Origin: Planctomycetota bacterium
Lineage (GTDB): Bacteria > Planctomycetota > Phycisphaerae > Phycisphaerales > SM1A02
Direction of reading: 5' to 3'
NCBI GenBank assembly: GCA_902521645.1
Contig: CABYSN010000004.1
Span: forward strand, 1-45,189
Length of the DNA: 45,189 bases
This document shows, piece after piece, positions 28,772 to 45,189 of this stretch. The number at the start of each line of letters is the position of its first letter. Positions within the stretch are counted from its first letter, which is position 1. The translations under genes and the position numbers were made by a program. The notes beneath the pieces are model-generated. The model did no database searches, was not told the DNA's origin, and was given only the letters and a program-made list of their open reading frames with translations.

Positions 28772-29167
28772 ATGACCAACGCATCCATCGCCGAATACGC
28801 CAGCGCCCAGGTCGTCACCGGGAGCGAGCTCGCGGAGGAGTCCCATGAGACTGCGGCATGCATCACCATCATCGATCTGCCGGCCGCACCCAGGCCTGCC
28901 CTGAAAGGGGATCCGGTCACCGGCAAGGTGAGCCTGATGATGCTGGCAGGGGAGGAATTCGGACGGATTCTCGAACTCGAGGACCTCAGGATTCATGATG
29001 GCCGGCTCTACGGGCGCAGCAGGGAATCGGTCCCCACCGGATCGATCGTCACCATCGGCTGGCAGGATCCCAGTCGGACCGCATGTCGGGGGGTGGTCGC
29101 ATTGGCGCTGCCGTCATCGGCGGGATGGCGAATCACGGTGGAACTGGAATCGAAGCTCGCGGCCTGA
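28772..29167 (+). CDS. Hypothetical protein
   Basis: 131 aa ORF, ATG start; no clear family. Confidence 0.65.
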   Translation: MTNASIAEYASAQVVTGSELAEESHETAACITIIDLPAAPRPALKGDPVTGKVSLMMLAGEEFGRILELEDLRIHDGRLYGRSRESVPTGSIVTIGWQDPSRTACRGVVALALPSSAGWRITVELESKLAA

Positions 29168-29487: not shown

Positions 29488-29856
29488 ATGCGCAACATTC
29501 GTACTGCCAGGCGCGGATTCACTCTGATCGAAATTCTGATCGTCGTCGTGATTCTCGGCATTCTCGCCTCGATCGTGATTCCCCAGTTCACCAACGCATC
29601 TGACCAGGCCGCTGCCAGTCAGGCACGAACCCAGCTTCAATCGATGCGCAGTCAGTGTCAGTTGTTCCGTGCCCAGAACAGTCGCCTTCCCGGCGATCTC
29701 GATTCAAGCGGTGGCATCGACTCCGTCGCGGCTTGTTTCACGGAACTCGTGGACAGCTCCTACATCCCCATGGAACCCACCGTCGGTGGCAGTTACGAGT
29801 GGGGATTGAGCAGCGACAACTCTCGTCTCGTCATCGTCGGTGAAGCCGACTGGTGA
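29488..29856 (+). CDS. Type IV pilin / major pseudopilin-like protein (pilin 1)
   Basis: Prepilin N-terminus RRG|FTLIEILIVVVILGILASIVIPQF. Confidence 0.93.
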   Translation: MRNIRTARRGFTLIEILIVVVILGILASIVIPQFTNASDQAAASQARTQLQSMRSQCQLFRAQNSRLPGDLDSSGGIDSVAACFTELVDSSYIPMEPTVGGSYEWGLSSDNSRLVIVGEADW

Positions 29857-30111: not shown

Positions 30112-30522
30112 ATGAAGGGTCTCACGTTGCATGACCGATCCCGATGCCGGCCGACGGGATTCACGCTGATCGAAATACTGATCGTGGTGGTCATTCTGGG
30201 AATTCTGGCGGCATTCACCGTTCCGCGGTTTACCGATGCCACGACACAGGCCGAAAATGCGACGGCGCATTCCCAGTTGAACGTTCTACGAGGTCAGATG
30301 GCCTTGTTCTGGGTCTACGAGGGCACGAACGCACCGCTCGGTTCCGACATCACGGAGGTCATCGACTCACTCGAATCCTACGGACTGCTTTCATCTCCCA
30401 TCGTGGATTCGGCACCCGATGTTTCGGGATTCCAGATCAGTGGGAATCACACTCTGACCTGGGATCAAAGCATCGGAGTCGTTCGTGTCTTTGATTCCGA
30501 CGGTTTTCCCTGTGATTGGTGA
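30112..30522 (+). CDS. Type IV pilin / pseudopilin-like protein (pilin 2)
   Basis: RPTG|FTLIEILIVVVILGILAAFTVPRF. Confidence 0.92.
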   Translation: MKGLTLHDRSRCRPTGFTLIEILIVVVILGILAAFTVPRFTDATTQAENATAHSQLNVLRGQMALFWVYEGTNAPLGSDITEVIDSLESYGLLSSPIVDSAPDVSGFQISGNHTLTWDQSIGVVRVFDSDGFPCDW

Positions 30523-31107: not shown

Positions 31108-31590
31108 ATGATTCGAAAACGCATTGTGAAAATCGCAGGACCTTCGTTGCTGCTTCTCGGCTCCGTGATGCTCTTCGGTGCGATGCGCGATCATGTCGCG
31201 ACGTCAGCTGCAGACGCGAGTCCTTCCCATGAGCAATCCGCCGGAGATCTCCCTGAAATCGGGCAGGTTTCCAAGGGGCCCTTGTTCAATCGAAGCGCGA
31301 ATGAACAACGTGCCACACAGACCCGGATCCTCGAACAGATACTCGACGAGCTCCGTGCCACGCGTCAGCTTCTGGCGAATGGGAACGCCCGTGTCAGGGT
31401 TGAATCGGTCGCGATCGATTACGACCGACTGAGCGAGTTGATCCAGGGTGTTCATTCGTCCGGTGGTGGTGCGGCAGATGCTACGATCCAGGAGGAAGCG
31501 GAAGCGACACCCGCACCAGCAGGGTCCGGAAGCGGATCGATCAGGCGCATCAGCTCTGCAGGATCAGATCAAGTGAACACGGCCCGATGA
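31108..31590 (+). CDS. Hypothetical single-TM protein of the pilus/secretion locus
   Basis: MIRKRIVKIAGPSLLLLGSVMLFGA; ATGA overlap with the next gene. Confidence 0.72.
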   Translation: MIRKRIVKIAGPSLLLLGSVMLFGAMRDHVATSAADASPSHEQSAGDLPEIGQVSKGPLFNRSANEQRATQTRILEQILDELRATRQLLANGNARVRVESVAIDYDRLSELIQGVHSSGGGAADATIQEEAEATPAPAGSGSGSIRRISSAGSDQVNTAR

Positions 31591-32186
31591 GGCTCCGATC
31601 GAAGTCACACCGGAATCATTCCGGCTACACCCTGGTCGAGATGCTGGTCGGCATAGGCATTCTGAGCATCGCCGGAATGCTTCTCATTCCGAATCTCATC
31701 GATCGGGAGACCTTCGCGATTCAAGCCGCTGCCCGATCGATCGTCTCCGACATCGTGTTCGCTCAATCCGATGCGCTGGCGAATCAGGAGTATCGACGAT
31801 TCCAGTTCATCGAGACTCCCGAGGGAGAGAGCGGCTACCTCGGTTACTGCGTGGTCAGAGTCTCACCCGAATCCTTTTCCTATCCGTACGATCCCGTGTC
31901 GGCCGACTATGTCTCTGATCCTCTCGGTACCACCGGCAATGACGGACACTACATCATCGACTTCTCTTCAGACGATCGATTCGACGGCGTTTTGATCGAA
32001 TCCGTCGATCTCGATTCCGGACTCGACTACACGACCTTCGACGAATACGGAGGTTCGGTGTCCTCCAGTGGCGGGGTGCCCGGGACCGGTGGGACGATCG
32101 ATCTGGTGTGCCAGGGAAGTCGTTACAGAGTGACCGTATCGGCATTCACGGCCAAGACAACGGTCGAAGTTCTTTCGACTCCCTGA
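31587..32186 (+). CDS. Pseudopilin, GspH-like
   Basis: HSG|YTLVEMLVGIGILSIAGMLLIPNLI prepilin motif with beta-rich C-terminal region. Confidence 0.83.
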   Translation: MRLRSKSHRNHSGYTLVEMLVGIGILSIAGMLLIPNLIDRETFAIQAAARSIVSDIVFAQSDALANQEYRRFQFIETPEGESGYLGYCVVRVSPESFSYPYDPVSADYVSDPLGTTGNDGHYIIDFSSDDRFDGVLIESVDLDSGLDYTTFDEYGGSVSSSGGVPGTGGTIDLVCQGSRYRVTVSAFTAKTTVEVLSTP

Positions 32187-32290: not shown

Positions 32291-32320
32291 GTGTCACCGA
32301 TTCTTGATATCGGTCGACAC
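32291..32320 (+). promoter_or_regulatory. RNA hairpin just upstream of the pilM-like gene
   Basis: GTGTC-ACCGAT-tcttgat-ATCGGT-c/g-GACAC, one-base bulge, ends 13 nt before ATG 32334. Confidence 0.4.
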
Positions 32321-32333
32321 CAGGGAGTCATCA

Positions 32334-33458
32334 ATGAGGTCCGGTATCTCACTGTCAATCCTCGCGAGGCGAACGCCCATCGGAATCGATGTGGGCGATG
32401 ATGCCGTTCGTGCGATCCAATTGGATTCAAGGACTTCCGAGATCAAGGCCGCGGCGATGTTTCCGCTTCCCGAATCCGATGCTCGTGACACCCACCTGTA
32501 TTCCGGACAGCTGCGCAAGTCCCTGCGACGATCAGGTTTCACGGGCTCGCGATGCGTCATCGGCGCCCCTCGAGAGCATGTCCACGTTCATCCCATCAGA
32601 GTCCCGCACATGTCCTCGAAGGAGCTGCAGGAGTCCCTGGCCTGGGAGGCGTCCGAACGTTTTTCCATTCCCCGTGATTCAGTGCAGGTCGACGGTGTGA
32701 TGACCGGAGCGCGAGCTCCTGGTGTCGATGATGACCGTGCGGAAGTGGTTCTCTTCGCGCTTGACGAGCGAAACATCGTCTCCTGGCTCGATCTGCTCAT
32801 GGAATCCGGTCTTTCCCCCTTGTGTCTCGAGCCAGGTTTCTGTGGTGTCGCCCGTGCCCACAGTCTGCACTGTCGCCGGGAACAGGACCGAGATCGAGTT
32901 CGCGTGGTTCTGGATTTCTCCGCTCGAGGGACCACCCTGATCTATCTTCGTGGTGATCGAATCGGATTCTGCAAGACATTCGACATCGGTGGTGAGTTGC
33001 TCGATTGCGCCACTTCCGAGTCGCTGGGCATGGATCTCGTGAGTGCTGCTGCGCTTCGACGTGATCGCCTCATGGCCTCCAGCAGAAGCCATTCCATGGA
33101 TGTTTCGGCTCAATCCGGTGCTTCTGATGCCGTCGCTCAGATTCTCCACCGCCTCGTCGAGGATGTGGCTCTTTGTCTTCGTCACTGTGCCGTCGCTTTT
33201 CGTGGTGCCCGTCCCGAATGCATCGTGCTCTCCGGACGGGAGTCTCTCGAACCTCGATTCTGCGAGATGCTTGAATCTGGAACCGGGATCCCCGTCACGC
33301 TTGATGACGAGAAGAGAACGATCGATTCCATCGGTCAGGCTCTCAGAAAGAACGGCATTCGTTCCGAATCGGCCTCGGCCTGGTCCGCTGCCTACGGCCT
33401 GGCATCACGTCCGCTCCGAAGCGGACGTGCCTCGAACAAGTCGGGGAGGGCGGCATGA
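32334..33458 (+). CDS. PilM-like actin-fold pilus assembly protein
   Basis: RTPIGIDVGDDAVRAIQLD; GFCGVARAHSLH; VVLDFSARGTTLIYLRGDRIGFCKTFDIGGELL. Confidence 0.8.
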   Translation: MRSGISLSILARRTPIGIDVGDDAVRAIQLDSRTSEIKAAAMFPLPESDARDTHLYSGQLRKSLRRSGFTGSRCVIGAPREHVHVHPIRVPHMSSKELQESLAWEASERFSIPRDSVQVDGVMTGARAPGVDDDRAEVVLFALDERNIVSWLDLLMESGLSPLCLEPGFCGVARAHSLHCRREQDRDRVRVVLDFSARGTTLIYLRGDRIGFCKTFDIGGELLDCATSESLGMDLVSAAALRRDRLMASSRSHSMDVSAQSGASDAVAQILHRLVEDVALCLRHCAVAFRGARPECIVLSGRESLEPRFCEMLESGTGIPVTLDDEKRTIDSIGQALRKNGIRSESASAWSAAYGLASRPLRSGRASNKSGRAA

Positions 33459-34078
33459 ATCAGGGACGTCTCGATCTTCTTCCACCGATGTATGGCGCCC
33501 GGGCCCGCATGCGGCTCGTCAATCGCAGAATCATCATCTGCGGTCTCGGCATGACCATCCTGCTGGTCGGTCTGGTGCTCCATGCCCGGATGGCCCGATC
33601 CTCGTCCGAAACCCTCCTGGTCCTGGCTCAGGAACAGGCGGAGAAGGTTCTCGTGGCGGAACGTCTCGAGGCGCGTTTGATCGAGGAGCTCGAGCTCAGT
33701 CGTCGCAGAATCGAATCCTGGCGGAAGATCGCACTTCCGATTCCCGTGGGTTCACTGCTCGTGACGATGGCGAACGTCGTGCCTGATTCCATCGTGCTCG
33801 AGGAATTGCACATCGACATGACCGGGATTCGACAGGGATATCGACGCGAGAGCTCTGTGGATCGGCGACTCATCGCCCGGATCGAGGGATTCGCACCAGA
33901 CGAACAGACGGTCCGACGTCTCGTTGAAACGCTGCGTGAACGGCATCCTTTCGAGGAGGTCAGGAGAGGTTTCACGGCTCTTCATGAGGAGAACGACCTC
34001 ATCCGGACCAAATTCTCGCTTGGGTTTGAAATCGACATGGAAACACCTTCATTCGTTGTCACAGGAGAAGAGAGATGA
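33455..34078 (+). CDS. PilN/GspL-like inner membrane protein
   Basis: Short N-term, one TM, coiled coil, ferredoxin-like C-term (VPDSIVLEELHID); ATGA overlaps both sides. Confidence 0.7.
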   Translation: MNQGRLDLLPPMYGARARMRLVNRRIIICGLGMTILLVGLVLHARMARSSSETLLVLAQEQAEKVLVAERLEARLIEELELSRRRIESWRKIALPIPVGSLLVTMANVVPDSIVLEELHIDMTGIRQGYRRESSVDRRLIARIEGFAPDEQTVRRLVETLRERHPFEEVRRGFTALHEENDLIRTKFSLGFEIDMETPSFVVTGEER

Positions 34079-34659
34079 AGAACGAAATCAGTGAGATCGA
34101 TCGTGATATCCGGCGTCGTGTCCAGTTTTCAGCCCTGATCATGGCGGCGGCAGCCGCAGCGGCATTCTTTCTGATCATTCATCCCGAGCACAGCCGTGCA
34201 TCGATGGCGAACGTCGAGGTTGATCGCCTGGAGCATGAAAGCGGTTCCATGGTCGCCACCGAATCGATGCTTCAGGAACTGAAGATCGAGCGTTCGCATC
34301 GCCTCGCCATCGAGCGCGACCAGCTCGAGATGATTCCCGTAGATGCCAGTGAATCCAGGCTGACCGATGCGCTTGCATTGAAAGTGGACGATGGAGCCGC
34401 CACATCATGGTCGGTCCGTCTTCTGCCCGTCGAGAAGATCGATGTTCCTGACGAGACCCGGGATTTCAAGAGTCTTCCCATGGCGGTTGAGATGAGCGGT
34501 CGTTTCGCTGCCGTGCTTGAAGCACTGCAGCGGGTGGAATCATCCGACCGACTGGTTCGGCTTCGTTCGCTTCGCGTCACACGTTCCCGAAGTGATTCTG
34601 AAATGGTCGAAGCGAACTTCGAGCTGGACACAGTCTTCGCGACGGAGGTGACCGAATGA
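34075..34659 (+). CDS. PilO/GspM-like inner membrane protein
   Basis: One N-terminal TM, coiled coil, position after PilN-like gene. Confidence 0.62.
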   Translation: MKNEISEIDRDIRRRVQFSALIMAAAAAAAFFLIIHPEHSRASMANVEVDRLEHESGSMVATESMLQELKIERSHRLAIERDQLEMIPVDASESRLTDALALKVDDGAATSWSVRLLPVEKIDVPDETRDFKSLPMAVEMSGRFAAVLEALQRVESSDRLVRLRSLRVTRSRSDSEMVEANFELDTVFATEVTE

Positions 34660-35324
34660 GCCATTTTCATTCTGAAAAAGACTCGTACGAAGCCGATGCC
34701 CGGTGGGGGATCCCTGCCTTTCTCGAACGGATTCGTCTGAGACTCGGCGCCTCACATCGCCAGTTCATGGTGTTCGGGCTACTCGTCCTCACCGGTGGAG
34801 TGATGATGGCCAGACCGGCGGGCATGCTTCTATGGCATCGACTTCGCATCATCTCCGGCATGCCACGCACCGCCATCGCCGACCAGGATCCCGAGATCGT
34901 CGCGGCACGCACGAGCCCCATGTTCGAAACCGTCTCGGAAGGACGCTCGATTCGACTGGATGTCTCGCTGGTCCGAGATCCCTTCGAGAGCCCGATCTTT
35001 CAATCGGTTCAGATCGCAACGGCGACCACAGGAGAATCGGAGGACCCTTCCGTCTCCAGTCCGATCGTGAGCCATGAACAGTCCAGATTGGTCGGCGCGC
35101 TCTCGAGCATTCGACTCACTGGAACTGCAAAGGGGCTTGGAACGGCGCTCATCAATGGTTCCGTCAGGTCGGTCGGGTCTCGATTCGAGGTCTCCGAGTA
35201 CACCTTTCAGTTGACCACCGTCGATGCCGGATCGATCCAGCTTGAAGTGGTTGAAAACCCTCTTTTCAAGGGGTGGCGTTGCATCGTGGGTCGAGAAGGG
35301 GCCACCTTACTTCACTCCGAGTGA
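34656..35324 (+). CDS. PilP/GspC-like protein
   Basis: One TM; RDPFESPIF...RLTGTAKGLGTALINGSVRSVGSRFEVSEYTFQLTTVDAGSIQLEV resembles PilP/GspC HR layout. Confidence 0.62.
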   Translation: MSHFHSEKDSYEADARWGIPAFLERIRLRLGASHRQFMVFGLLVLTGGVMMARPAGMLLWHRLRIISGMPRTAIADQDPEIVAARTSPMFETVSEGRSIRLDVSLVRDPFESPIFQSVQIATATTGESEDPSVSSPIVSHEQSRLVGALSSIRLTGTAKGLGTALINGSVRSVGSRFEVSEYTFQLTTVDAGSIQLEVVENPLFKGWRCIVGREGATLLHSE

Positions 35325-35376: not shown

Positions 35377-35544
35377 CGGTGATTTCACCTCAACGTGGTG
35401 GTTTGGGCAAAGTCGGGGGGATGCAGGGCCGAAAAGTGATTACCGGCGTCGGGCGCCGGTAACCGCCACGTAGGGCACGGCGGTGCACGGGCCGTCTTAC
35501 TCCAGGGCTCAGTGAATACCTCAGGCAACGAGGAGCGCCAATCG
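35377..35544 (+). promoter_or_regulatory. Structured 5' leader of the secretin gene (unassigned)
   Basis: Hairpin TTACCGGCG-TCGGG-CGCCGGTAA at 35440-35462; further complementarity CCGCC/GGCGG and GCAC/GTGC; between a terminator and the secretin start. Confidence 0.4.
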
Positions 35545-37629
35545 ATGACGAATCAACTCTCATGCACTTCCAGAATGACTCCACTTCGCGTTCTCATCGC
35601 GATGTCATGTCTGTTCATGACGCCCATGGCTTTCGGGCAATCTGGTGATGGGGGCCCTGACGGACAGGTTCCGACTGAAAAGAAGTCCGGGGGCGAGGAA
35701 GTCATCGATGAATTCGGTACCTTCGAGATCGCAGTGGAGGACGTCCCCCTTCCGCAGGTCCTCAACATGCTCGCGATCCAGAGCCGAAGGAACATCATCA
35801 CCAGCAAGAGAGTCGGAAGTGTCTCGGTGACCGCGAACCTCTTCGATGTCACATTCTACGAAGCACTCGAGAGCATTCTTCACATCGCGAGTCTCTGCTA
35901 CGACGAGCAGGGGAATTTCATCTACGTGATGACCTGCGAGGAGAAGATGCAGCGTGAGAATGCGAACCGTGTCATGGAGGACAGGGTCTTCTATCTCGAT
36001 CACATCTCGCCGATCGACGCGGAGGCGTTGGCGAAGCCGCTTCTTTCGGACAATGGGACCATGTCCCGTCTCGGAGAGATCCAGATGGGATTCGCTCCCG
36101 GCAAGACGGATGCAGGTGGTGATTCATGGGCGCACGAACCGGTGCTCGTGGTTCGCGACTATCAGGAGAATCTCAAGGCCGTGGAGTCACTGCTGGACGA
36201 CGTGGACACTCCGCCCAAGCAGGTCATGGTCGAATCGACGATTCTCGTCACCGAAGCAAGCGGTGATTACGCCTGGGGCATGGACGTGAGTGTGCTTCTG
36301 AAGGGTTCGTTCACCGATCTGATCAATCCGTTGAATCCGGTGAGCTGGCTTCAGAATCAGAACAACCCGACCCCGGGGGGCACAGTGCCAACCTCCAATG
36401 ATCTGGCGATCCAGTCGACCGTCGGTGCGACCACCGAACGCGGTGGTTTCAAGCTCGGAGTTCTCAACGAGAACGTCGGCGTCTTCATGCGTCTTCTTGA
36501 TGAGGTCTCCGACACCATGATTCTCGCACGCCCGAAGATTCTGGCGTTGAACAGACAGAGGGCTCAGGTCCTGGTCGGCGAACGAGTCGCCTATCTGTCG
36601 ACCACTCAGACGGAAACGGCTTCCACCCAGTCCGTTCAGTATCTCGACACGGGCATCAATCTTATTCTTCGTCCCTTCATCAGTCGTGACGGTTCGATCC
36701 GTCTCGAGCTCTTTCCGAGTGTGAGTGAGTACACGATTCGAAAGATCGGCAACCCTCTCAGCGCCGGATACACAGAAGTTCCGGATGAATCAACGCATGA
36801 AATCACCACCAATGTCCGTGTCCGTGATGGTGAGACGATCGTCCTCGGCGGTCTCTTCAAGGACAAGGCGATCACCAGCAGAAGAAGCGTTCCCGGTCTC
36901 GGTGACGTTCCACTCGTTGGCGCCGCTTTTCAGGGACAGGACGACGAAGTCACTCGCCAGGAGATCATCTTTCTTGTGACCCCGACGGTCATCAAGGAAG
37001 AGGTCATGACCGCCGCTTCCGACGAAGCCGACAACCTGGTCCGAAACGTGCAGGTCGGCGTGCGAGAGGGTCTTCTTCCCTGGTCGCGCGAGAAGATCGC
37101 CGCGAATCTGAATCACGATGCTCACGTGGCACTTGGTGACGGCGAGACCGATCGTGCGATTTCGTACATCAACAGATCCCTTCGCAATGATCCCAATCAG
37201 CCCGAAATGGTCGACATGCGCAGTCAGCTTCTTGGTGAAAGATCCATCTACAGCGAAAGCGGAGACGTCCTGACCAACATCTTCGATCGGATGATTCGAA
37301 AGTCACTCGATTCGACGGACGACGAGGAGTCACTGCCGCACTCCGACCCGCTCTCATTCGTGATGCCCCGGGGCGAACACTCCGATTCCACGCTGTTTGA
37401 AGCATCGCTCGAGGCATCACTCGCCGAGGAGTCGTTCGTCAACGCCCGGACTGATTCCTCGAATGACCCGGAATCTCAATCGCTTGACGGAGAGGTCGCG
37501 GATTATCCCGGCATCTTCAATCTGTTCACCGAGACCCGATATCGAACCAAGCTCACTGATTGGTGGGTGTCGCTCGTCGCGGCTGACGCTGCAACTCAGA
37601 CTGAAATGGCCACCGCCGAAGTCGAATGA
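35545..37629 (+). CDS. Secretin (GspD/PilQ-like) with long C-terminal extension
   Basis: FEIAVEDVPLPQVLNMLAIQSRRNII; KQVMVESTILVTEAS; VPGLGDVPLVGAAFQGQDDEVTRQEIIFLVTPTVI. AGGAG upstream of ATG 35545. Confidence 0.92.
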   Translation: MTNQLSCTSRMTPLRVLIAMSCLFMTPMAFGQSGDGGPDGQVPTEKKSGGEEVIDEFGTFEIAVEDVPLPQVLNMLAIQSRRNIITSKRVGSVSVTANLFDVTFYEALESILHIASLCYDEQGNFIYVMTCEEKMQRENANRVMEDRVFYLDHISPIDAEALAKPLLSDNGTMSRLGEIQMGFAPGKTDAGGDSWAHEPVLVVRDYQENLKAVESLLDDVDTPPKQVMVESTILVTEASGDYAWGMDVSVLLKGSFTDLINPLNPVSWLQNQNNPTPGGTVPTSNDLAIQSTVGATTERGGFKLGVLNENVGVFMRLLDEVSDTMILARPKILALNRQRAQVLVGERVAYLSTTQTETASTQSVQYLDTGINLILRPFISRDGSIRLELFPSVSEYTIRKIGNPLSAGYTEVPDESTHEITTNVRVRDGETIVLGGLFKDKAITSRRSVPGLGDVPLVGAAFQGQDDEVTRQEIIFLVTPTVIKEEVMTAASDEADNLVRNVQVGVREGLLPWSREKIAANLNHDAHVALGDGETDRAISYINRSLRNDPNQPEMVDMRSQLLGERSIYSESGDVLTNIFDRMIRKSLDSTDDEESLPHSDPLSFVMPRGEHSDSTLFEASLEASLAEESFVNARTDSSNDPESQSLDGEVADYPGIFNLFTETRYRTKLTDWWVSLVAADAATQTEMATAEVE

Positions 37630-37658
37630 TCCGAGCATCCACTCGTACCACCTGGAGA

Positions 37659-38900
37659 ATGAACGTGACCTCAATGAAGTACATCATCATGACACTTGGA
37701 GCCGTCGGCCTGCTTTCGCTCGCCGCCTGTTCCACGACCCCCGGCGCGAATGGTGTCAAGAATCGAATCGAATCCCAGAAGCGGGTCGCAGGACATGCAG
37801 CTCGGCTGGAATTGGAGCAGGCCTACCGTTCGTACACCACCGGGATGTTCGATCAGGCGATGAAATACGCTGAACAGGCCCGAATGCGGACTCCACAGGA
37901 TCCTTCGGCCTACATGTTGATGGCCAGGATCTGTCTCGAGCAGGGGCGTCTGGAGTCTTCCGACACCTTGATCGGTGAGGCGCTCAGACTCGACGCCTCC
38001 ATCCCCGACGCTCATTACCTCAGAGGTGTCATCTACCAAAGGTGGAGTCGGGACGAACAGGCTTTGGACGCCTACATGTCCGCCTGGAACGTCGATCCGA
38101 GCAGTGTTCAAAGCGTCCACTATCTGCTTGCCGCCGGTGAAGTGCTCGTCGACATGAAGCGATACAGGATGGCCCGTGAACTGCTCATTCCAAAGCTCGG
38201 TTATTTCGAGAACAACGCCGCGATGCATCACCTCCTGGGGACCATCGCCGTCCTCGAGAAGAATGGCGATCTGGCGATCGAACATCTCGGTCAGGCCTAT
38301 CTGATCGGTGGAGAGGATGAGATCATCCTTGCCGATCTCGCCCGTGCCCAGCTTGATCACGAAGAATACCGTGCGTGTCTCCGCAATCTCGACACGCTCG
38401 AGAACATGTTCGACGAATCCGTTCCAGGCTGGCTCTACGAGTTGCGTGCACGTTGCTACAAGGCGATGGGATCTCCTCGTGAAGCGCGAAGTTCCTATGT
38501 CCAGTTGCTCAGGATCGAGCCGGAAAACGTGGATGCCTGGATCGAGTACGGCGACATGGCGCATCAGATCGGTGATTACGGCCGTCTTGAAACCTGTGGT
38601 GCCCGTCTGATTTCGATCGCGCCCGATCGTTTCGAAGGCTACTTCTACAAGGGAATCGTCTATCTCGAAGCGGGCAAGCTTGATGCGGCGAAAGTCTGGT
38701 TCACGAAGGCCAGGCAGGTCGCTCCCGCGGATGAATCGATCCCGTCGCTTGCCGTCGCCCATGTCGAGATGATCCGTGGTGACAGGTTGGCCGCTCGTGA
38801 TGCCTTCAAGGACGTGCTCGATCGCTCTCCTGATGATCCCAGGACGCGCTCCTACGTCGAGACCATCGCGACAGGTTCACTCGACTTCATTCCTGATTGA
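37659..38900 (+). CDS. TPR-repeat lipoprotein
   Basis: Lipobox LSLAACSTT; multiple TPR units. Start could be 37626 or 37674. Confidence 0.85.
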   Translation: MNVTSMKYIIMTLGAVGLLSLAACSTTPGANGVKNRIESQKRVAGHAARLELEQAYRSYTTGMFDQAMKYAEQARMRTPQDPSAYMLMARICLEQGRLESSDTLIGEALRLDASIPDAHYLRGVIYQRWSRDEQALDAYMSAWNVDPSSVQSVHYLLAAGEVLVDMKRYRMARELLIPKLGYFENNAAMHHLLGTIAVLEKNGDLAIEHLGQAYLIGGEDEIILADLARAQLDHEEYRACLRNLDTLENMFDESVPGWLYELRARCYKAMGSPREARSSYVQLLRIEPENVDAWIEYGDMAHQIGDYGRLETCGARLISIAPDRFEGYFYKGIVYLEAGKLDAAKVWFTKARQVAPADESIPSLAVAHVEMIRGDRLAARDAFKDVLDRSPDDPRTRSYVETIATGSLDFIPD

Positions 38901-40333
38901 TGCGAAAGGGAAGCAGGGACATGGTGAGGCGATTCGTCTGGGACAATCTGATCTTGATCGCGCTGTCATCGGCGACCGCGACCGCTCTGGGTGGAATCTC
39001 CGTCGCAGTCTTCGGATTCGAACCTGTCGGCATGCTCGGACTCGTCGGTGCTTCGATCATCGGTGCATGCATCATCTATTCTGTCTCTGCGCGGTCATCC
39101 GAAAGAGTCGTTCGTGAAGTCATCGATCAGATGGAATCGATCATCGCCAACGATGAGCAGGTGAATCTCGTCGGGTCCGATCGACTTCTCGATATTCATG
39201 ATCAGATCTCCCGAATGCATGCCCGCAGTCGTGAGGAGATCGCATCCCGACATGTCGCCGTCTCACGGTCGGAAGAGCTTCTCAAGGTCCTGAGCATGCT
39301 CGAGGGTCCGGTCATCGTGTTCGATCGGATGGGTGCCATCCGTCTCACCAACGCCGCATCGGACGCTCTGTTCGGTTGTGCGAAAAGCCCTGTCGGCACC
39401 GGAATCATCCAGATGCTCGATGATTGCCTGCTTCGTGATCAGATACTGGACGGACTTTCCGAAGGCGCCGTCCACGGTCGCATCTTCGACTGCGAGTACG
39501 ACACCCGGCAGGATGACGAGGATTCGCTTCGCCAGTTCAAGGCAAGCATCGTCTCCCTGGCTGATTCGGAGGAGGGTCCCTTCGTCCTTTCGCTTCTCGA
39601 CCTCACCAGAGAGAATCGGGTCTCGAGGATGAAATCGGATTTCGTCTCCAAGGCCAGCCATGAACTGCGGACTCCGATGGCCTCGATTCGCGCGTATCTG
39701 GAGATGCTCGTCGACGACGAGATCATCGATGAAGCGGAGCGGAGGAAGGTTCTGACATCCATGCTCCAGGACACGGATCGTCTGTCCGCACTCGTCGACA
39801 ACATGTTGAACATCAGCAGGATCGAAGCGGGCATGGTCCGTCCAGTCCTCGAAAAGACGGATCTGGGCCTCGTCTCCGAGCGTGTCCTGCACCGCCTGGG
39901 TCCTGCCGCGTCCGAGAAAAACATCTCTCTTTCGACCTCACCATCGACCGTCGATCTCACGGTCGAAGCCGACGCAGCGATGCTCGAACAGGTGGTCGAA
40001 AATCTGGCTTCCAACGCCATCAAATACACGCCTGAAGGTGGGCGTGTCTCCATCGCGATAGATACGGATCCGCTTGAACGCACCGTGGTGGTCTCGATAA
40101 CCGATACCGGACTTGGAATCCCCTCTGACGCCCAGGAAAGGGTGTTTGAGAAGTTTTTCCGAGTCACCAGCTACGAGCGCATGGCCAAAGGCACGGGCCT
40201 GGGACTGAACTTGTGCAGAAACATTGTGGAATCAGTTCATCAAGGCCGCATAGGTGTCGATTCAAGGGTAGGGGAAGGCTCGAGATTCTGGTTCTCGGTC
40301 CCCGTCGGATTCGCAGGCGCGCGCGCCGCATAA
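38900..40333 (+). CDS. Membrane-associated sensor histidine kinase (TM, PAS-like, HisKA, HATPase)
   Basis: SKASHELRTPMASIRAYLEM H-box; NLASNAIKYTPEGG; DTGLGIP; GTGLGLNLC; two N-terminal TMs. Confidence 0.93.
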   Translation: MRKGSRDMVRRFVWDNLILIALSSATATALGGISVAVFGFEPVGMLGLVGASIIGACIIYSVSARSSERVVREVIDQMESIIANDEQVNLVGSDRLLDIHDQISRMHARSREEIASRHVAVSRSEELLKVLSMLEGPVIVFDRMGAIRLTNAASDALFGCAKSPVGTGIIQMLDDCLLRDQILDGLSEGAVHGRIFDCEYDTRQDDEDSLRQFKASIVSLADSEEGPFVLSLLDLTRENRVSRMKSDFVSKASHELRTPMASIRAYLEMLVDDEIIDEAERRKVLTSMLQDTDRLSALVDNMLNISRIEAGMVRPVLEKTDLGLVSERVLHRLGPAASEKNISLSTSPSTVDLTVEADAAMLEQVVENLASNAIKYTPEGGRVSIAIDTDPLERTVVVSITDTGLGIPSDAQERVFEKFFRVTSYERMAKGTGLGLNLCRNIVESVHQGRIGVDSRVGEGSRFWFSVPVGFAGARAA

Positions 40334-40349
40334 GTGATTGGAGGCGACA

Positions 40350-40739
40350 ATGAGTCTGATACTGGTCGCCGATGATGAAAGTCACATCGTTCAGGTTCTT
40401 GCCTTGAAGTTCCGCAATGCGGGACATGATGTCATCGAAGCCAATGATGGTGAAGAGGCATTGGGACTCGCCCGTCAGCACCAGCCCGACGTGCTGGTCA
40501 CCGACATGCAGATGCCGTTCATGAACGGCATGGAGCTCGCAGGTGCGCTTCTCGATGATGCGCGGACGTCTGCTATCCCGGTTCTGGTACTGACCGCTCG
40601 TGGTTGGGCCATGGACGACTGCATCGCGACCCTTTCCAACGTCAAGTCCGTTCAAAGCAAGCCTTTCAGTCCACGTGAGATCCTGTCACTGGTCGAAGGT
40701 CTCATGTCCGACGCCGAACGGGGCAGTGAGTGCACATGA
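40350..40739 (+). CDS. Single-domain response regulator (CheY-like receiver)
   Basis: LILVADDESHIVQVL...DVLVTDMQMPFMNGMEL...VQSKPFSPREIL. Confidence 0.93.
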   Translation: MSLILVADDESHIVQVLALKFRNAGHDVIEANDGEEALGLARQHQPDVLVTDMQMPFMNGMELAGALLDDARTSAIPVLVLTARGWAMDDCIATLSNVKSVQSKPFSPREILSLVEGLMSDAERGSECT

Positions 40740-42376
40740 ATTCATCCACCAGGCATATTCAGATCACCGACAACGACGAGGTGCTTCGTCGCATGGGTGT
40801 GGTTCGTCGGACCATCGCCGAGAATGGCGACGCCGTCTTCGCTCCCGGCGCCGACTGGCTCGAGACCTTTCTTTTCTCCAGCGCGCCCGTGCGAAATCGA
40901 CTCGATGAAATCCTCGAAGGCATGGATTCGAACGGGACGAACGAATCGGCGGTTTCCTGCGAGGTGCTCCCCGGTCTCTGGATGATGGTCTTCTCGCGGA
41001 ATGCGAGACGCGAATCGGCGACGACCGTCGCGATGATGCTCACCATCGAGATCCTGGGAAGCGCCTATTTCGAAATGCTCTGTCAGGCTGCCCAGGTCGA
41101 TCGGATTCTGGTCCGATCCATGCTTGAAGAGATGAATCTGATCCAATCCTGCGAGGTCGAACGGACGGTCGAATTCATCAGTCTTCTCACTCGTAGCGAG
41201 GGAGAAACCGCACAAAGAACGAACATGCTGGCCGACCTCGGCAAGCAGCTTGGTGAAAGCTACGAGGAGATCCATCTCTATCACAGCCTGATCGGATGCA
41301 CCAGCGTCTCGACCAGTCCCATGGCTTTTCTCACAACCGTCGCCGAAGAGCTCAAGACGGTTCTTCCGTTCTCATGGATTGCGATCAGGATCCTCACGGA
41401 TCGGATCAATCTCACCGAGGATTTCGACGGCTTCGTCGTGGGTGGTGATCTTGGTCGACAGCATCCGGTGCTTGCAACCGTGGGAGAGCGAATCGCTCTC
41501 TCGATCGAGGGGCGGACACCGGTGATCATTCGTACGGAATCCGATCCTCGATTCGAGGGGACTTTCGGATTCGCATCCAACGTCGTGGCATGCCCCATCG
41601 CGGGGGATTCCGGCACCATCGGTGTGCTCTTCGCCGGAAACGACGCGCAAAACGACGATGAGGCGTCAAACATCGAAATGAAGCTTCTCGGTGCGGCCTC
41701 CGAACACGTTTCCGTGTTCCTGCGCAACGCCTCCTTGTATGAAAACCTGGATTCGATGTTCCTGGGCACCGTCCAGGCGATGGTCTCCGCGATCGATGCC
41801 AAGGACAGATACACCTGTGGTCATTCACAGCGAGTCGCATGGCTCGCTCGTGAGCTCGCGATCAATTGCGGTCATGACCCGGAGTTCGTCAGGCGGGTCC
41901 ACCTCGCAGGTCTCGTCCATGATGTGGGCAAGATCGGTGTACCCGAAAAGGTTCTCAGCAAGCCGGGCCGTCTTGACGACGAGGAGTTCAAGGCCATTCA
42001 GATGCACCCCGAGATCGGCAGCCGGATCCTCAGGGACATCCCTCAGATGGACGGGATTCTTCCGGCGGTGATGCACCATCATGAACGGTGGGATGGTCGT
42101 GGTTATCCCCACGCCATTTCCGGAGAGGACATCCCACTGATCGCGAGAATCGTCGCGATCGCGGATGCCTTCGATGCGATGAGTTCAACCAGGACATATC
42201 GTTCCGCACGCCCACGTCACGAAGTGCTTGCCGAGATGAATCGCTGTCGCGGGACGCAGTTCGACCCTGATCTGGTCCGTCCTTTTCTCGCAATAGATTT
42301 CACCGAATACGACAAGATGATCCATGGCGCTCTCCGGGCCTTCGAACAGGATCAGGAAGGCCGAGCCGCCGCATGA
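40736..42376 (+). CDS. HD-GYP domain protein with GAF-like sensory region
   Basis: HSQRVAWLARELA, LVHDVGKIGVPEKVL, HPEIGSRIL, HHERWDGRGYP, ADAFDAMSSTRTYR; ATGA overlaps both sides. Confidence 0.93.
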   Translation: MNSSTRHIQITDNDEVLRRMGVVRRTIAENGDAVFAPGADWLETFLFSSAPVRNRLDEILEGMDSNGTNESAVSCEVLPGLWMMVFSRNARRESATTVAMMLTIEILGSAYFEMLCQAAQVDRILVRSMLEEMNLIQSCEVERTVEFISLLTRSEGETAQRTNMLADLGKQLGESYEEIHLYHSLIGCTSVSTSPMAFLTTVAEELKTVLPFSWIAIRILTDRINLTEDFDGFVVGGDLGRQHPVLATVGERIALSIEGRTPVIIRTESDPRFEGTFGFASNVVACPIAGDSGTIGVLFAGNDAQNDDEASNIEMKLLGAASEHVSVFLRNASLYENLDSMFLGTVQAMVSAIDAKDRYTCGHSQRVAWLARELAINCGHDPEFVRRVHLAGLVHDVGKIGVPEKVLSKPGRLDDEEFKAIQMHPEIGSRILRDIPQMDGILPAVMHHHERWDGRGYPHAISGEDIPLIARIVAIADAFDAMSSTRTYRSARPRHEVLAEMNRCRGTQFDPDLVRPFLAIDFTEYDKMIHGALRAFEQDQEGRAAA

Positions 42377-42708
42377 GAATTTCACATGAAGATCATGGTG
42401 CGACCTCGTTGGTGGCACTTGCAGGTGATTTCCTCGAGGAGAGTTCGGAGGTCTTCAAGAAGACCGTCTCCGAACGTTTCGAATCGGGAATCAGGAACAT
42501 CGTGCTCGACATGACCGGAGTCGGCTCGATCGATTCCGTCGGACTCGAATCCCTCCTCTGGGTCAATGATGAATCCACGAGGAATTCCGGAAGGTTCAAG
42601 CTGGTCGGAGTCGTGGACGCGGTTTCCGAAGCCTTGACGGTCACCAGACTCGTCCGTCGTTTCGATCTCGAGGAAAGCGTTGAAAGCGCTGCCCGTTCGC
42701 TCAGGTAA
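42373..42708 (+). CDS. STAS domain protein (anti-anti-sigma-like)
   Basis: IVLDMTGVGSIDSVGLESLLWV STAS signature. Confidence 0.87.
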   Translation: MRISHEDHGATSLVALAGDFLEESSEVFKKTVSERFESGIRNIVLDMTGVGSIDSVGLESLLWVNDESTRNSGRFKLVGVVDAVSEALTVTRLVRRFDLEESVESAARSLR

Positions 42709-42723
42709 GGAGGTCTTGCAATC

Positions 42724-44469
42724 ATGGAAAGCAATCCGACATTCGCATCACGTGTCCGCTCGTTCGATCGATCGATCGCGAGTCCCGTGCCTCTCGGACA
42801 GGTTCTCATCGAACGTGGCCTGGTCACCGACGAAGCCCTCCAGGAAGCTCTGGATGTCCAGAGACAGGATGGTCGCGGAAGACTCATCGGGGAGATCCTG
42901 GTCGAACAGGGGATCGTCGATGAAGCGGCGGTGATGGAGGTCGTCGCCGAGGCCTACGGACTGCCTTTCGTCCGTGGTGTGGCGAGGCTTGCCGATCCGT
43001 CGATCGTGGACTGCATCGCGCGTGAGTTCGTCGAGGAACACGGGGTCCTGCCTCTCTACAGAGTGCGTGGCATGTTGACGGTCGCTGTCGCCGAACCTGC
43101 GAATCTGTATCTGATCGAGGAGATCCGCCGCATCTCCGGTTGTGAAGTCCAGCTCGCGGTCGCGACGAGGGCGGACATAGACGCCTCCATCAAGAGCTAT
43201 CTCCCAACGGCGAGCGTCTTCGTCATCGACGACATCTACGAGGATGTCGCTGAAACCGATTTCAGCGTGATCGAGCGTGAAGCCGCCGAGATATCCGATC
43301 TTCGGGAGGTCTCAGGTCATTCGCCGGTCGTGAAACTCGTCAATTACATGATCTTCACCGCCGTTCAGGAGGGTGCATCCGACATCCATGTCGAACCCGG
43401 CGACCATGAACTCCGAGTCCGCTATCGGATCGACGGGAAGCTTTTCGAGAAACTCGCGCCACCACATCAGATGTCTCCCGCGATCGTGAGCCGCATCAAG
43501 ATCATGGCCGGCCTCGACATCTCCGAAAGACGCCTTCCTCAGGATGGGGACATCCATGTGCGAATGGAAAGCCGACCCATCGATCTGCGTGTCTCCACGA
43601 TGCCCGGTCGATGGGGTGAGAAGGTCGTGATCCGAGTGATCGACGCCCGAAACACGAATGTCGAGCTCGATCGCCTGGGCATGTCCGCCGAAACGCTCGT
43701 TCGCTGGCAGGAAGTCATCGAGAACCCCAATGGTGTGATTCTCGTCACTGGTCCCACCGGATCGGGGAAGTCGACAACGCTCTATTCCGTCCTGTCTCGC
43801 CTTGATCGGACGGAGCGAAATGTCTCGACCATCGAGGATCCTGTCGAATCGACTCTTGAGGGCGTCAATCAGTTCCAGGTGAATGAAAAAGCGGGTTTCG
43901 GATTCGCCGATGCGCTCAGATCGATGCTCCGCCAGGATCCGGATGTCATGATGGTCGGCGAGATTCGTGATGTCGAGACGGCGGCCCTCGCCACTCAGGC
44001 CGCCTTGACCGGGCATCTGGTGTATTCGACGCTGCATACGAACGAGGCGTGCGGCGCGATCACACGCATGATCAATCTGCAGGTGGAACCGTATCTGGTG
44101 GCTGCCACCCTGCGAGGCATCCTCGCTCAGAGGCTCGTTCGAAAGACCTGCCCTCATTGCCGCACCGCCTATCGCCCTGATGACAACATACGAGCCGTTC
44201 TCGGAATGACCGGTGCCGGCGATTCGCTCTGGAGAGGAACCGGCTGTCAGAAATGTCGCGACACCGGATTTTCAGGTCGACTTGGGATCTTCGAACTTCT
44301 GAATCCTGATGAAGCCTTCCTCGATGGGGTCGGCCGATGTGCACCGATTTCGGAATTGAGAACGCATGCCATCGGAGCTGGAATGGTTCCTCTCCGAGAA
44401 GATGGTTTCGCCAAGGCGATCGAAGGTCTGACCACCGTCGAGGAAGTGTTGAATGCCGCTCGCAGTTGA
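42724..44469 (+). CDS. gspE: GspE/PilB family assembly ATPase with MshEN-like N-terminal region
   Basis: Walker A GPTGSGKSTTLYSVL; Asp box/Walker B DPDVMMVGEIRDVETA; CPHC...CQKC; N-term PLGQVLIERGLVTDEALQEALDVQ...RLIGEILVEQGIVDEAAVMEV. Confidence 0.95.
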   Translation: MESNPTFASRVRSFDRSIASPVPLGQVLIERGLVTDEALQEALDVQRQDGRGRLIGEILVEQGIVDEAAVMEVVAEAYGLPFVRGVARLADPSIVDCIAREFVEEHGVLPLYRVRGMLTVAVAEPANLYLIEEIRRISGCEVQLAVATRADIDASIKSYLPTASVFVIDDIYEDVAETDFSVIEREAAEISDLREVSGHSPVVKLVNYMIFTAVQEGASDIHVEPGDHELRVRYRIDGKLFEKLAPPHQMSPAIVSRIKIMAGLDISERRLPQDGDIHVRMESRPIDLRVSTMPGRWGEKVVIRVIDARNTNVELDRLGMSAETLVRWQEVIENPNGVILVTGPTGSGKSTTLYSVLSRLDRTERNVSTIEDPVESTLEGVNQFQVNEKAGFGFADALRSMLRQDPDVMMVGEIRDVETAALATQAALTGHLVYSTLHTNEACGAITRMINLQVEPYLVAATLRGILAQRLVRKTCPHCRTAYRPDDNIRAVLGMTGAGDSLWRGTGCQKCRDTGFSGRLGIFELLNPDEAFLDGVGRCAPISELRTHAIGAGMVPLREDGFAKAIEGLTTVEEVLNAARS

Positions 44470-45189
44470 TACGACATTCGTTCAAGGGCAATCCGCCGCC
44501 GAATCGACGTACGCATGGCGTGCCCGTGATGCGGATGGATCGATCTCCTCCGGAACTCTGAGTGCCGTCTCAGAGAACGAAGTCGCATCCCGACTTCGTT
44601 CAGAAGGGCGGTTCGTCATCTCGATCAGGCAGAGTGCCTCCGGTGAATCGGAACCCGTGATACAGATGGGTCATTCGAGGCGGTTCAATCGCAATGACGT
44701 CATCACCTTCTTCCGTCAGCTTTCGGTGATGTTGTCTGCCGGTGTGTCGATATCGGAATCACTCGATGCGATCGTCCGACAGTCCGCTGACACTCAGAGA
44801 CGTGATTTCATTCTCAAGATCCAATCCGAAGTCGAATCAGGGGAGTCGTTCTCCACCGTTCTCTCCCGACGCGGACGTCAGTTCCCGCTTTCGGTCGTCA
44901 GTCTGATTCGTGCGGCTGAAGCGACCGGTCAGCTCGATGTCATGACACGTCGCGCCGCAGAGCATCTCGAGAAGGACCGTCGCGTCCGCGGGCAGGTGAA
45001 GACTGCCATCACCTACCCAGCTTTCATGGCGGTCGCAGGATTCGGGATCATCGTCGCCTTGCTGGTCCTGGTTCTGCCCCGATTCGCGGCGATCTATGAA
45101 TCTAAATCCGCTCTGCTGCCCGCGCCGACACGTTTCCTTCTGGAGTTTTCAGGTTTTCTGCGATCCGAGTGGTACTGGTATCTTCCGGC
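44453..45189 (+). CDS. gspF: GspF/PilC inner-membrane platform protein, truncated by window end
   Basis: TYAWRARDADGSISSGTLSA, FFRQLSVMLSAGVSISESLDAI, KTAITYPAFMAVAGFGIIVALLVLVLPRF; not in the ORF track because it runs off the end; start overlaps gspE. Confidence 0.9.
   Translation, partial: MPLAVDTTFVQGQSAAESTYAWRARDADGSISSGTLSAVSENEVASRLRSEGRFVISIRQSASGESEPVIQMGHSRRFNRNDVITFFRQLSVMLSAGVSISESLDAIVRQSADTQRRDFILKIQSEVESGESFSTVLSRRGRQFPLSVVSLIRAAEATGQLDVMTRRAAEHLEKDRRVRGQVKTAITYPAFMAVAGFGIIVALLVLVLPRFAAIYESKSALLPAPTRFLLEFSGFLRSEWYWYLP

Follow-up and report, generated by a model that had tools for sequence, protein, structure and literature searches.

Decisions about when pilus and secretion motors run are known largely from a few proteobacteria and cyanobacteria. 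In Xanthomonas, the RpfC/RpfG two-component system provides an example in which RpfG HD-GYP complexes reach the type IV pilus ATPases PilT/PilU (PMC3749722). In Vibrio, an N-terminal MshEN domain binds cyclic di-GMP (c-di-GMP) and controls the ATPase MshE (PMC5013675), and in cyanobacteria the PATAN-CheY receiver PixE is reported to bind the motor PilB1 (PMC7690835). In this work, we describe a locus of a Planctomycetota bacterium (Phycisphaerales; SM1A02; assembly GCA_902521645.1), contained in 45,189 nucleotides of contig CABYSN010000004.1 (hereafter, the window), where four genes, encoding a sensor histidine kinase (HK), a stand-alone receiver (REC), an HD-GYP protein and a STAS protein, precede the gene of a PilB/GspE-type assembly ATPase (hereafter, PilB). 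We propose that the four act together as a cassette dedicated to controlling PilB at the post-translational level in a type IV pilus/type II secretion-like machine, a reading to which the sequence comparisons lead us to give a probability of roughly 0.57.

The cassette resembles RpfC/RpfG in its two-component input to an HD-GYP protein, in its proposed output to a type IV pilus ATPase, and in a possible protein-contact mode of action. However, RpfG is a single polypeptide with both REC and HD-GYP and reaches the retraction motors PilT/PilU through GGDEF/PilZ proteins, with PilZ as the adaptor and without STAS, whereas here the REC has its own gene within the pilus operon and the assembly motor would be the target. 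The window PilB, like MshE and other MshEN ATPases, carries an N-terminal MshEN domain as a potential c-di-GMP input, but its second half-site is without Arg and Gln, its spacer is longer, and a phosphodiesterase gene lies beside the motor gene. Similarly to PixE, the cassette REC would act on a PilB motor by contact, although it is a bare receiver (Response_reg is its only domain and Pfam finds no PATAN domain) and is accompanied by a kinase, an HD-GYP protein and a STAS protein. The STAS protein shares its fold and phospho-acceptor serine with the partner-switch proteins SpoIIAA/RsbV, but its constant neighbour is a pilus motor, and no anti-sigma kinase, phosphatase or sigma factor is encoded nearby. 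Finally, MlaB is also a small STAS partner of an ATPase, as proposed here (6xgy and 6zy2 are among the fold matches), although its partner is the ATPase of an ABC transporter rather than a secretion-type hexameric ATPase.

HD-GYP complexes, MshEN and receivers are each known separately to control pilus motors, and the combined cassette is apparently undescribed: neither a STAS-PilB link nor this cassette was found in the open-access literature, although a description elsewhere is possible, and the same literature yielded no paper on planctomycete type IV pili with PilB and c-di-GMP; PMC6440734 proved to be a false lead.

The signalling genes and their proposed working

The window is the whole of one contig (C4) of a metagenome-assembled genome of 1.39 Mb that is 54% complete. 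The genes of the cassette and of the motor are as follows.

38900..40333, + strand: sensor histidine kinase (HisKA, HATPase_c in Pfam)
40350..40739, + strand: stand-alone receiver (Response_reg, E 1.5e-19)
40736..42376, + strand: HD-GYP protein, predicted c-di-GMP phosphodiesterase (HD_5 in Pfam)
42373..42708, + strand: single-domain STAS protein (STAS/ant_ant_sig)
42724..44469, + strand: PilB/GspE-type assembly ATPase (T2SSE, E 1e-130; MshEN, E 1e-16)
44453..45187, + strand: GspF/PilC inner-membrane platform protein, cut by the contig end (T2SSF, E 8e-29)

According to the open reading frames (ORFs) and Pfam matches of the window, these genes are consecutive, co-directional and mostly overlapping, and the signalling genes sit inside an operon-like array of PilM-N-O-P, secretin and TPR genes, directly 5' of the motor gene. 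The gene order, the domains and the two ATGA overlaps (40736-40739 and 42373-42376) of a preliminary description made from the sequence agree exactly with the ORFs, Pfam and a reading of the junctions. Its gene list was right, but it was without the MshEN domain of the ATPase, the GAF-like domain of the HD-GYP protein and the overlap of the HK and TPR genes, in which the kinase start and the TPR stop share one base (TGATG at 38898-38902). PilB starts 15 bases 3' of STAS, with AAGGAGGT, and the start of PilC lies inside the end of PilB in a 17-base overlap. The REC start is placed at the ATG at 40350, behind GGAGG at 40340-40344; the longest ORF begins at 40338.

From its sequence, the kinase is predicted to cross the membrane with two helices, and it has a PAS-like linker and no sizeable extracytoplasmic domain; its HisKA motif is SHELRTP, and the His motif is kept in relatives. 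The receiver contains the acidic pair in ADDE, the phospho-Asp in TDMQMP and the Lys in KPFSPR, all kept in 36 aligned sequences. REC and HD-GYP are two overlapping genes and not one polypeptide. The HD-GYP protein consists of an N-terminal alpha/beta domain, a coiled coil, a GAF-like domain and the HD-GYP domain. Its predicted model matches PDB 4mcw across the GAF and HD-GYP parts, and the alpha/beta domain (residues ~12-130) has no match in Pfam or in a fold search of the PDB. The motifs HDxGK and HHExxDGxGYP are intact as HDVGK and HHERWDGRGYP, and their residues (H395, D396, G398, K399, H448, H449, E450, D453, G454, G456 and Y457) are invariant in 22 orthologs; the protein is predicted to be a c-di-GMP phosphodiesterase. 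Of 34 cassette genomes, 33 encode GGDEF proteins and the exception is 75% complete, which rules out the idea that small cassette-bearing genomes have lost c-di-GMP signalling. In three close relatives, a second GAF/HD-GYP gene lies 3' of PilC (L067:2599-4361, as two ORFs in L067; L068; L069).

From these parts we propose the following working. On sensing a cue at or within the membrane, the membrane-bound kinase would phosphorylate the stand-alone receiver, which in turn may contact its overlapping partner, the GAF-HD-GYP phosphodiesterase. This enzyme would lower c-di-GMP near the machine, and if PilB reads c-di-GMP by means of its MshEN domain, the phosphodiesterase would turn assembly down. 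The STAS protein, for its part, may dock on PilB and gate either the assembly or the activity of the motor, depending on the state of a conserved serine. Control of PilB by the cassette proteins, and the sign of each effect in the model, are what we infer from the sequences.

Conservation of the cassette and its association with the motor

The preliminary description had suggested a gene-neighbourhood search, and in this search the order HK-REC-HDGYP-STAS-PilB recurs across Phycisphaerales and about 20 families of Phycisphaerae, which rules out an arrangement unique to the window genome. Most of 60 relatives have both HD-GYP and PilB orthologs, separated by about 370 bases; beyond the top 20, one genome-contig scan with HD-GYP gave mostly generic HD-GYP matches. 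At the order level, Secretin-TPR-HK-REC-HDGYP-STAS-PilB-PilC is almost invariant in 40 regions from all sampled families (f1-f6). When 35 PilB loci of the order with at least 6.5 kb upstream are considered, STAS is found in 33, HD-GYP in 32, REC in 32 and HK in 31, and STAS stands directly before PilB in 33/35. Note that the order regions were chosen by HD-GYP or PilB matches, and these counts are not a census.

At the class level, the HD-GYP protein is present in 117 of 150 evenly sampled genomes (E up to 1e-75). STAS lies on the same strand no more than 700 bases 3' of HD-GYP in at least 79 of the 117, and at 1.3-1.8 kb in 6 more (at least 85). The same cluster appears in most of the roughly 20 families represented by 40 class regions, family f9 being mostly without it. 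An alternative form, HK-REC-HDGYP followed after a gap by STAS-PilB-PilC-PilM, occurs in families f19 and f22 and also at L240, a locus of another planctomycete class. In L227, STAS-HK is divergent from REC-HDGYP, and in L111 the genes are rearranged as REC-HDGYP-HK-STAS-PilB; since these versions keep the same parts together, they support a dedicated signalling unit. No STAS-PilB fusion was seen within Phycisphaerae; long ORFs in L087 and L093 were rejected as fusions, as in these the STAS frame is extended upstream and does not include PilB.

As a control, we applied the same method to 20 other PilB-family genes in ten of the same genomes. Upstream of these paralogs, HD-GYP and REC were each found in none and STAS in 4, and all four STAS-bearing loci have the order HK-STAS-PilB, a second cluster type. 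Chance clustering with any PilB gene is ruled out by these loci, and the lack of HD-GYP or REC at 0/20 paralogs points to an association with particular motor lineages and not with pili generally. The genes are also inherited together. Across 47 loci with the complete set of eight genes, the pairwise divergence of each signalling gene correlates with PilB divergence, with r 0.85 for HK, 0.71 for REC, 0.74 for HDGYP and 0.76 for STAS; the secretin value, 0.77, is comparable with those of the signalling genes, and 0/1000 permutations reached the tested values. Because shared ancestry alone yields such correlations, they indicate inheritance as a block and not contact.

The association extends to a delta-proteobacterial class. 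In JAFDFZ010000007.1 (L170), HK-REC-HDGYP is followed by a single ORF of 690 residues, containing STAS at 21-116 and then MshEN and T2SSE domains, and by PilC. Among the nine closest PilB genes in a 147-genome sample of this class (L170 included), STAS is directly upstream in 8 and fused in 1; HK is present in 9/9, REC directly in 7/9 and HD-GYP in 3/9. This gene fusion is the strongest hint in the sequences of a working contact between STAS and PilB.

These results bear on another explanation, namely co-expression without contact: the two-component proteins and HD-GYP would reduce c-di-GMP throughout the cell while the machine is being made, as in motile to sessile decisions, and membership of the operon would serve only to couple expression of the signalling genes to that of the pilus genes. 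The overlap of the genes in one operon-like array is consistent with this explanation, as is the occurrence of similar full-length HD-GYP proteins in other planctomycete classes, mostly away from pili (L240 is an exception). Furthermore, three genomes (G001, G016 and G029, at L070, L097 and L098, respectively) have lost PilB, PilC and HK but retain the secretin, the TPR gene and HD-GYP; REC also remains in two of the three. Against co-expression speak the restriction of the cassette to one lineage of PilB, with its absence from the paralogous pilus clusters that these genomes also carry, the MshEN domain of the motor, and the adjacency and fusion of STAS and PilB; we regard it as quite unlikely.

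The motor, the STAS protein and the weighing of readings

The MshEN domain of PilB, of the c-di-GMP receptor type, spans residues ~23-162 and scores above the cut-offs of both NF053729 (53.4 bits; cut-off 38) and Pfam MshEN (60.7; cut-off 23.1). We measured its two half-sites, each a 24-residue motif, against the published consensus (PMC5013675) in 37 aligned PilB orthologs. In half-site 1 (RLGxx..LxxxLxxQ), Gly25, Leu43 and Gln46 are kept in 37/37 and Leu24 and Leu39 mostly. For MshE itself, the Gly and Leu positions weigh most, and Arg/Gln changes cut binding at most about fivefold (PMC5013675); given this tolerance, it is possible that the window PilB binds c-di-GMP through MshEN.

The STAS protein has the fold of SpoIIAA/RsbV, as judged from an AlphaFold model (pLDDT 96; TM 0.86-0.93 to TM1442 and SpoIIAA). 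Ser55 aligns with the phospho-serine of SpoIIAA, the phospho-acceptor position D54-S55 is invariant in cassette relatives, and the DS pair is also kept in the delta-proteobacterial STAS proteins.

Several observations weigh against the proposed cassette. The half-site 1 Arg is Pro in the window PilB and is Arg in only 7/37 orthologs; in half-site 2, Arg is replaced by Leu and Gln by Ala, Gly or Ser, so that the consensus residues are lost in 37/37; and the spacer has 7 residues as against 5 in the consensus. Owing to these three differences, c-di-GMP binding by PilB is uncertain. The cassette contains no gene for a STAS kinase or phosphatase, and the STAS-PilB fusion comes from one metagenome-assembled genome. 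In addition, several HK-(REC)-STAS-PilB clusters are without HD-GYP, so that this protein cannot be indispensable to the wiring.

The chief alternative is a partner switch whose target is a sigma factor. Here, STAS, as an anti-anti-sigma factor, would titrate an RsbW-type kinase whose gene lies elsewhere and in this way control the sigma factor of a pilus or biofilm regulon, HD-GYP would set global c-di-GMP, and placement in the operon would reflect feedback co-expression. The SpoIIAA-type fold of STAS, together with its phospho-acceptor serine, agrees with such a role. So does the presence of RsbW-type (stand-alone HATPase_c_2) proteins, unlinked to the cassette, in nearly all of the 34 cassette genomes tested, which excludes the possibility that these genomes have no STAS kinases. 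On the other hand, no RsbW-type kinase, PP2C phosphatase or sigma factor gene is found in the window cluster or in the conserved cassette of the order and class regions, and several RsbW-type genes already adjoin their own STAS (G179:C7, G187:C11 and G044:C3). Moreover, an anti-sigma role does not predict a STAS gene directly before PilB in two phyla, fused once. We consider this partner switch unlikely.

A further alternative concerns placement: REC and STAS might position PilB at the pole, bud or stalk instead of switching its activity. In cyanobacteria, receivers have been reported to redirect movement through an action on PilB1 (PMC7690835), and docking of STAS fits this explanation equally well, but it leaves the HD-GYP enzyme and the MshEN domain without a role, and nothing in the sequence bears on localisation. 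We regard it as improbable.

Returning to the dedicated cassette, the claim of the preliminary description that the genes are one module controlling the assembly machine stands in part. Synteny, paralogs, co-inheritance and the fusion make a signalling unit dedicated to the assembly machine well supported at the level of sequence, but the unit is not indivisible: HK-STAS-PilB occurs without adjacent REC-HD-GYP, and three genomes kept HD-GYP after the loss of PilB and HK. Taken together, the PilB/PilC/HK losses and the HK-STAS-PilB clusters without HD-GYP point to two sub-units, HK-STAS-PilB and REC-HD-GYP, and suggest that the former is the core and the latter an add-on. A more specific version, to which we give slightly less than an even chance, is that STAS is a regulatory subunit of the type IV filament motor, that HK-STAS-PilB is an ancient cross-phylum unit, and that REC-HD-GYP is a local c-di-GMP off-switch added to it.

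The remainder of the array and the meaning of the cassette

Upstream of the cassette, the array contains the following genes.

29488..29856, + strand: prepilin, likely the major subunit (N_methyl Pfam match; methylation motif GFTLIEILIVVVILGILA; ATG at 29488)
30112-30522 and 31587-32186, + strand: two further prepilins (N_methyl Pfam matches)
32304-33458, + strand: PilM (PilM_2, above cut-off)
33455-34078, + strand: PilN (weak match, below cut-off)
34075-34659, + strand: PilO (named by position and conservation in relatives)
34656-35324, + strand: PilP-like protein (named by position and conservation in relatives)
35512..37629, + strand: secretin, PilQ/GspD type (Pfam Secretin, E 2e-40)
37626..38900, + strand: TPR lipoprotein, PilW/pilotin-like (TPR Pfam matches; lipobox LSLAAC; weak PilW similarity)

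Parts of a type IV filament machine, namely prepilins, PilM/N/O, a secretin, a T2SSE motor and a T2SSF protein, are present in one array. The motor scores below the cut-offs of both curated PilB/GspE models (579.8 for TIGR02533, cut-off 630.25; 561.1 for TIGR02538, cut-off 675.65). A PilT-type retraction ATPase was not found in the window cluster, which stops inside PilC, nor after PilC in relatives, and the other T2SSE matches of the genome are on other contigs. Just 5' of the first prepilin, a 131-residue ORF (28772-29167) has no family match.

In eight relatives, a convergent gene just 3' of PilC, or of HD-GYP where PilB was lost, encodes a putative secreted protein of ~345 residues with the motif DRWMYPFN..PG (L067:5496-6533; homologs in L068-L071, L098, L100 and L103); the L067 protein has a weak dockerin-like C-terminal end. 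We regard this protein as a possible substrate of the machine; the contig of the window stops short of the corresponding position.

With the cassette, two-component, c-di-GMP and STAS signalling would converge on one ATPase by way of a defined list of parts. These are encoded beside the motor throughout one class of planctomycetes and, in part, in a class of delta-proteobacteria, and specific contacts become testable with small purified proteins. If the proposal is true, filament motors would join sigma factors and transporters as targets of STAS switching.

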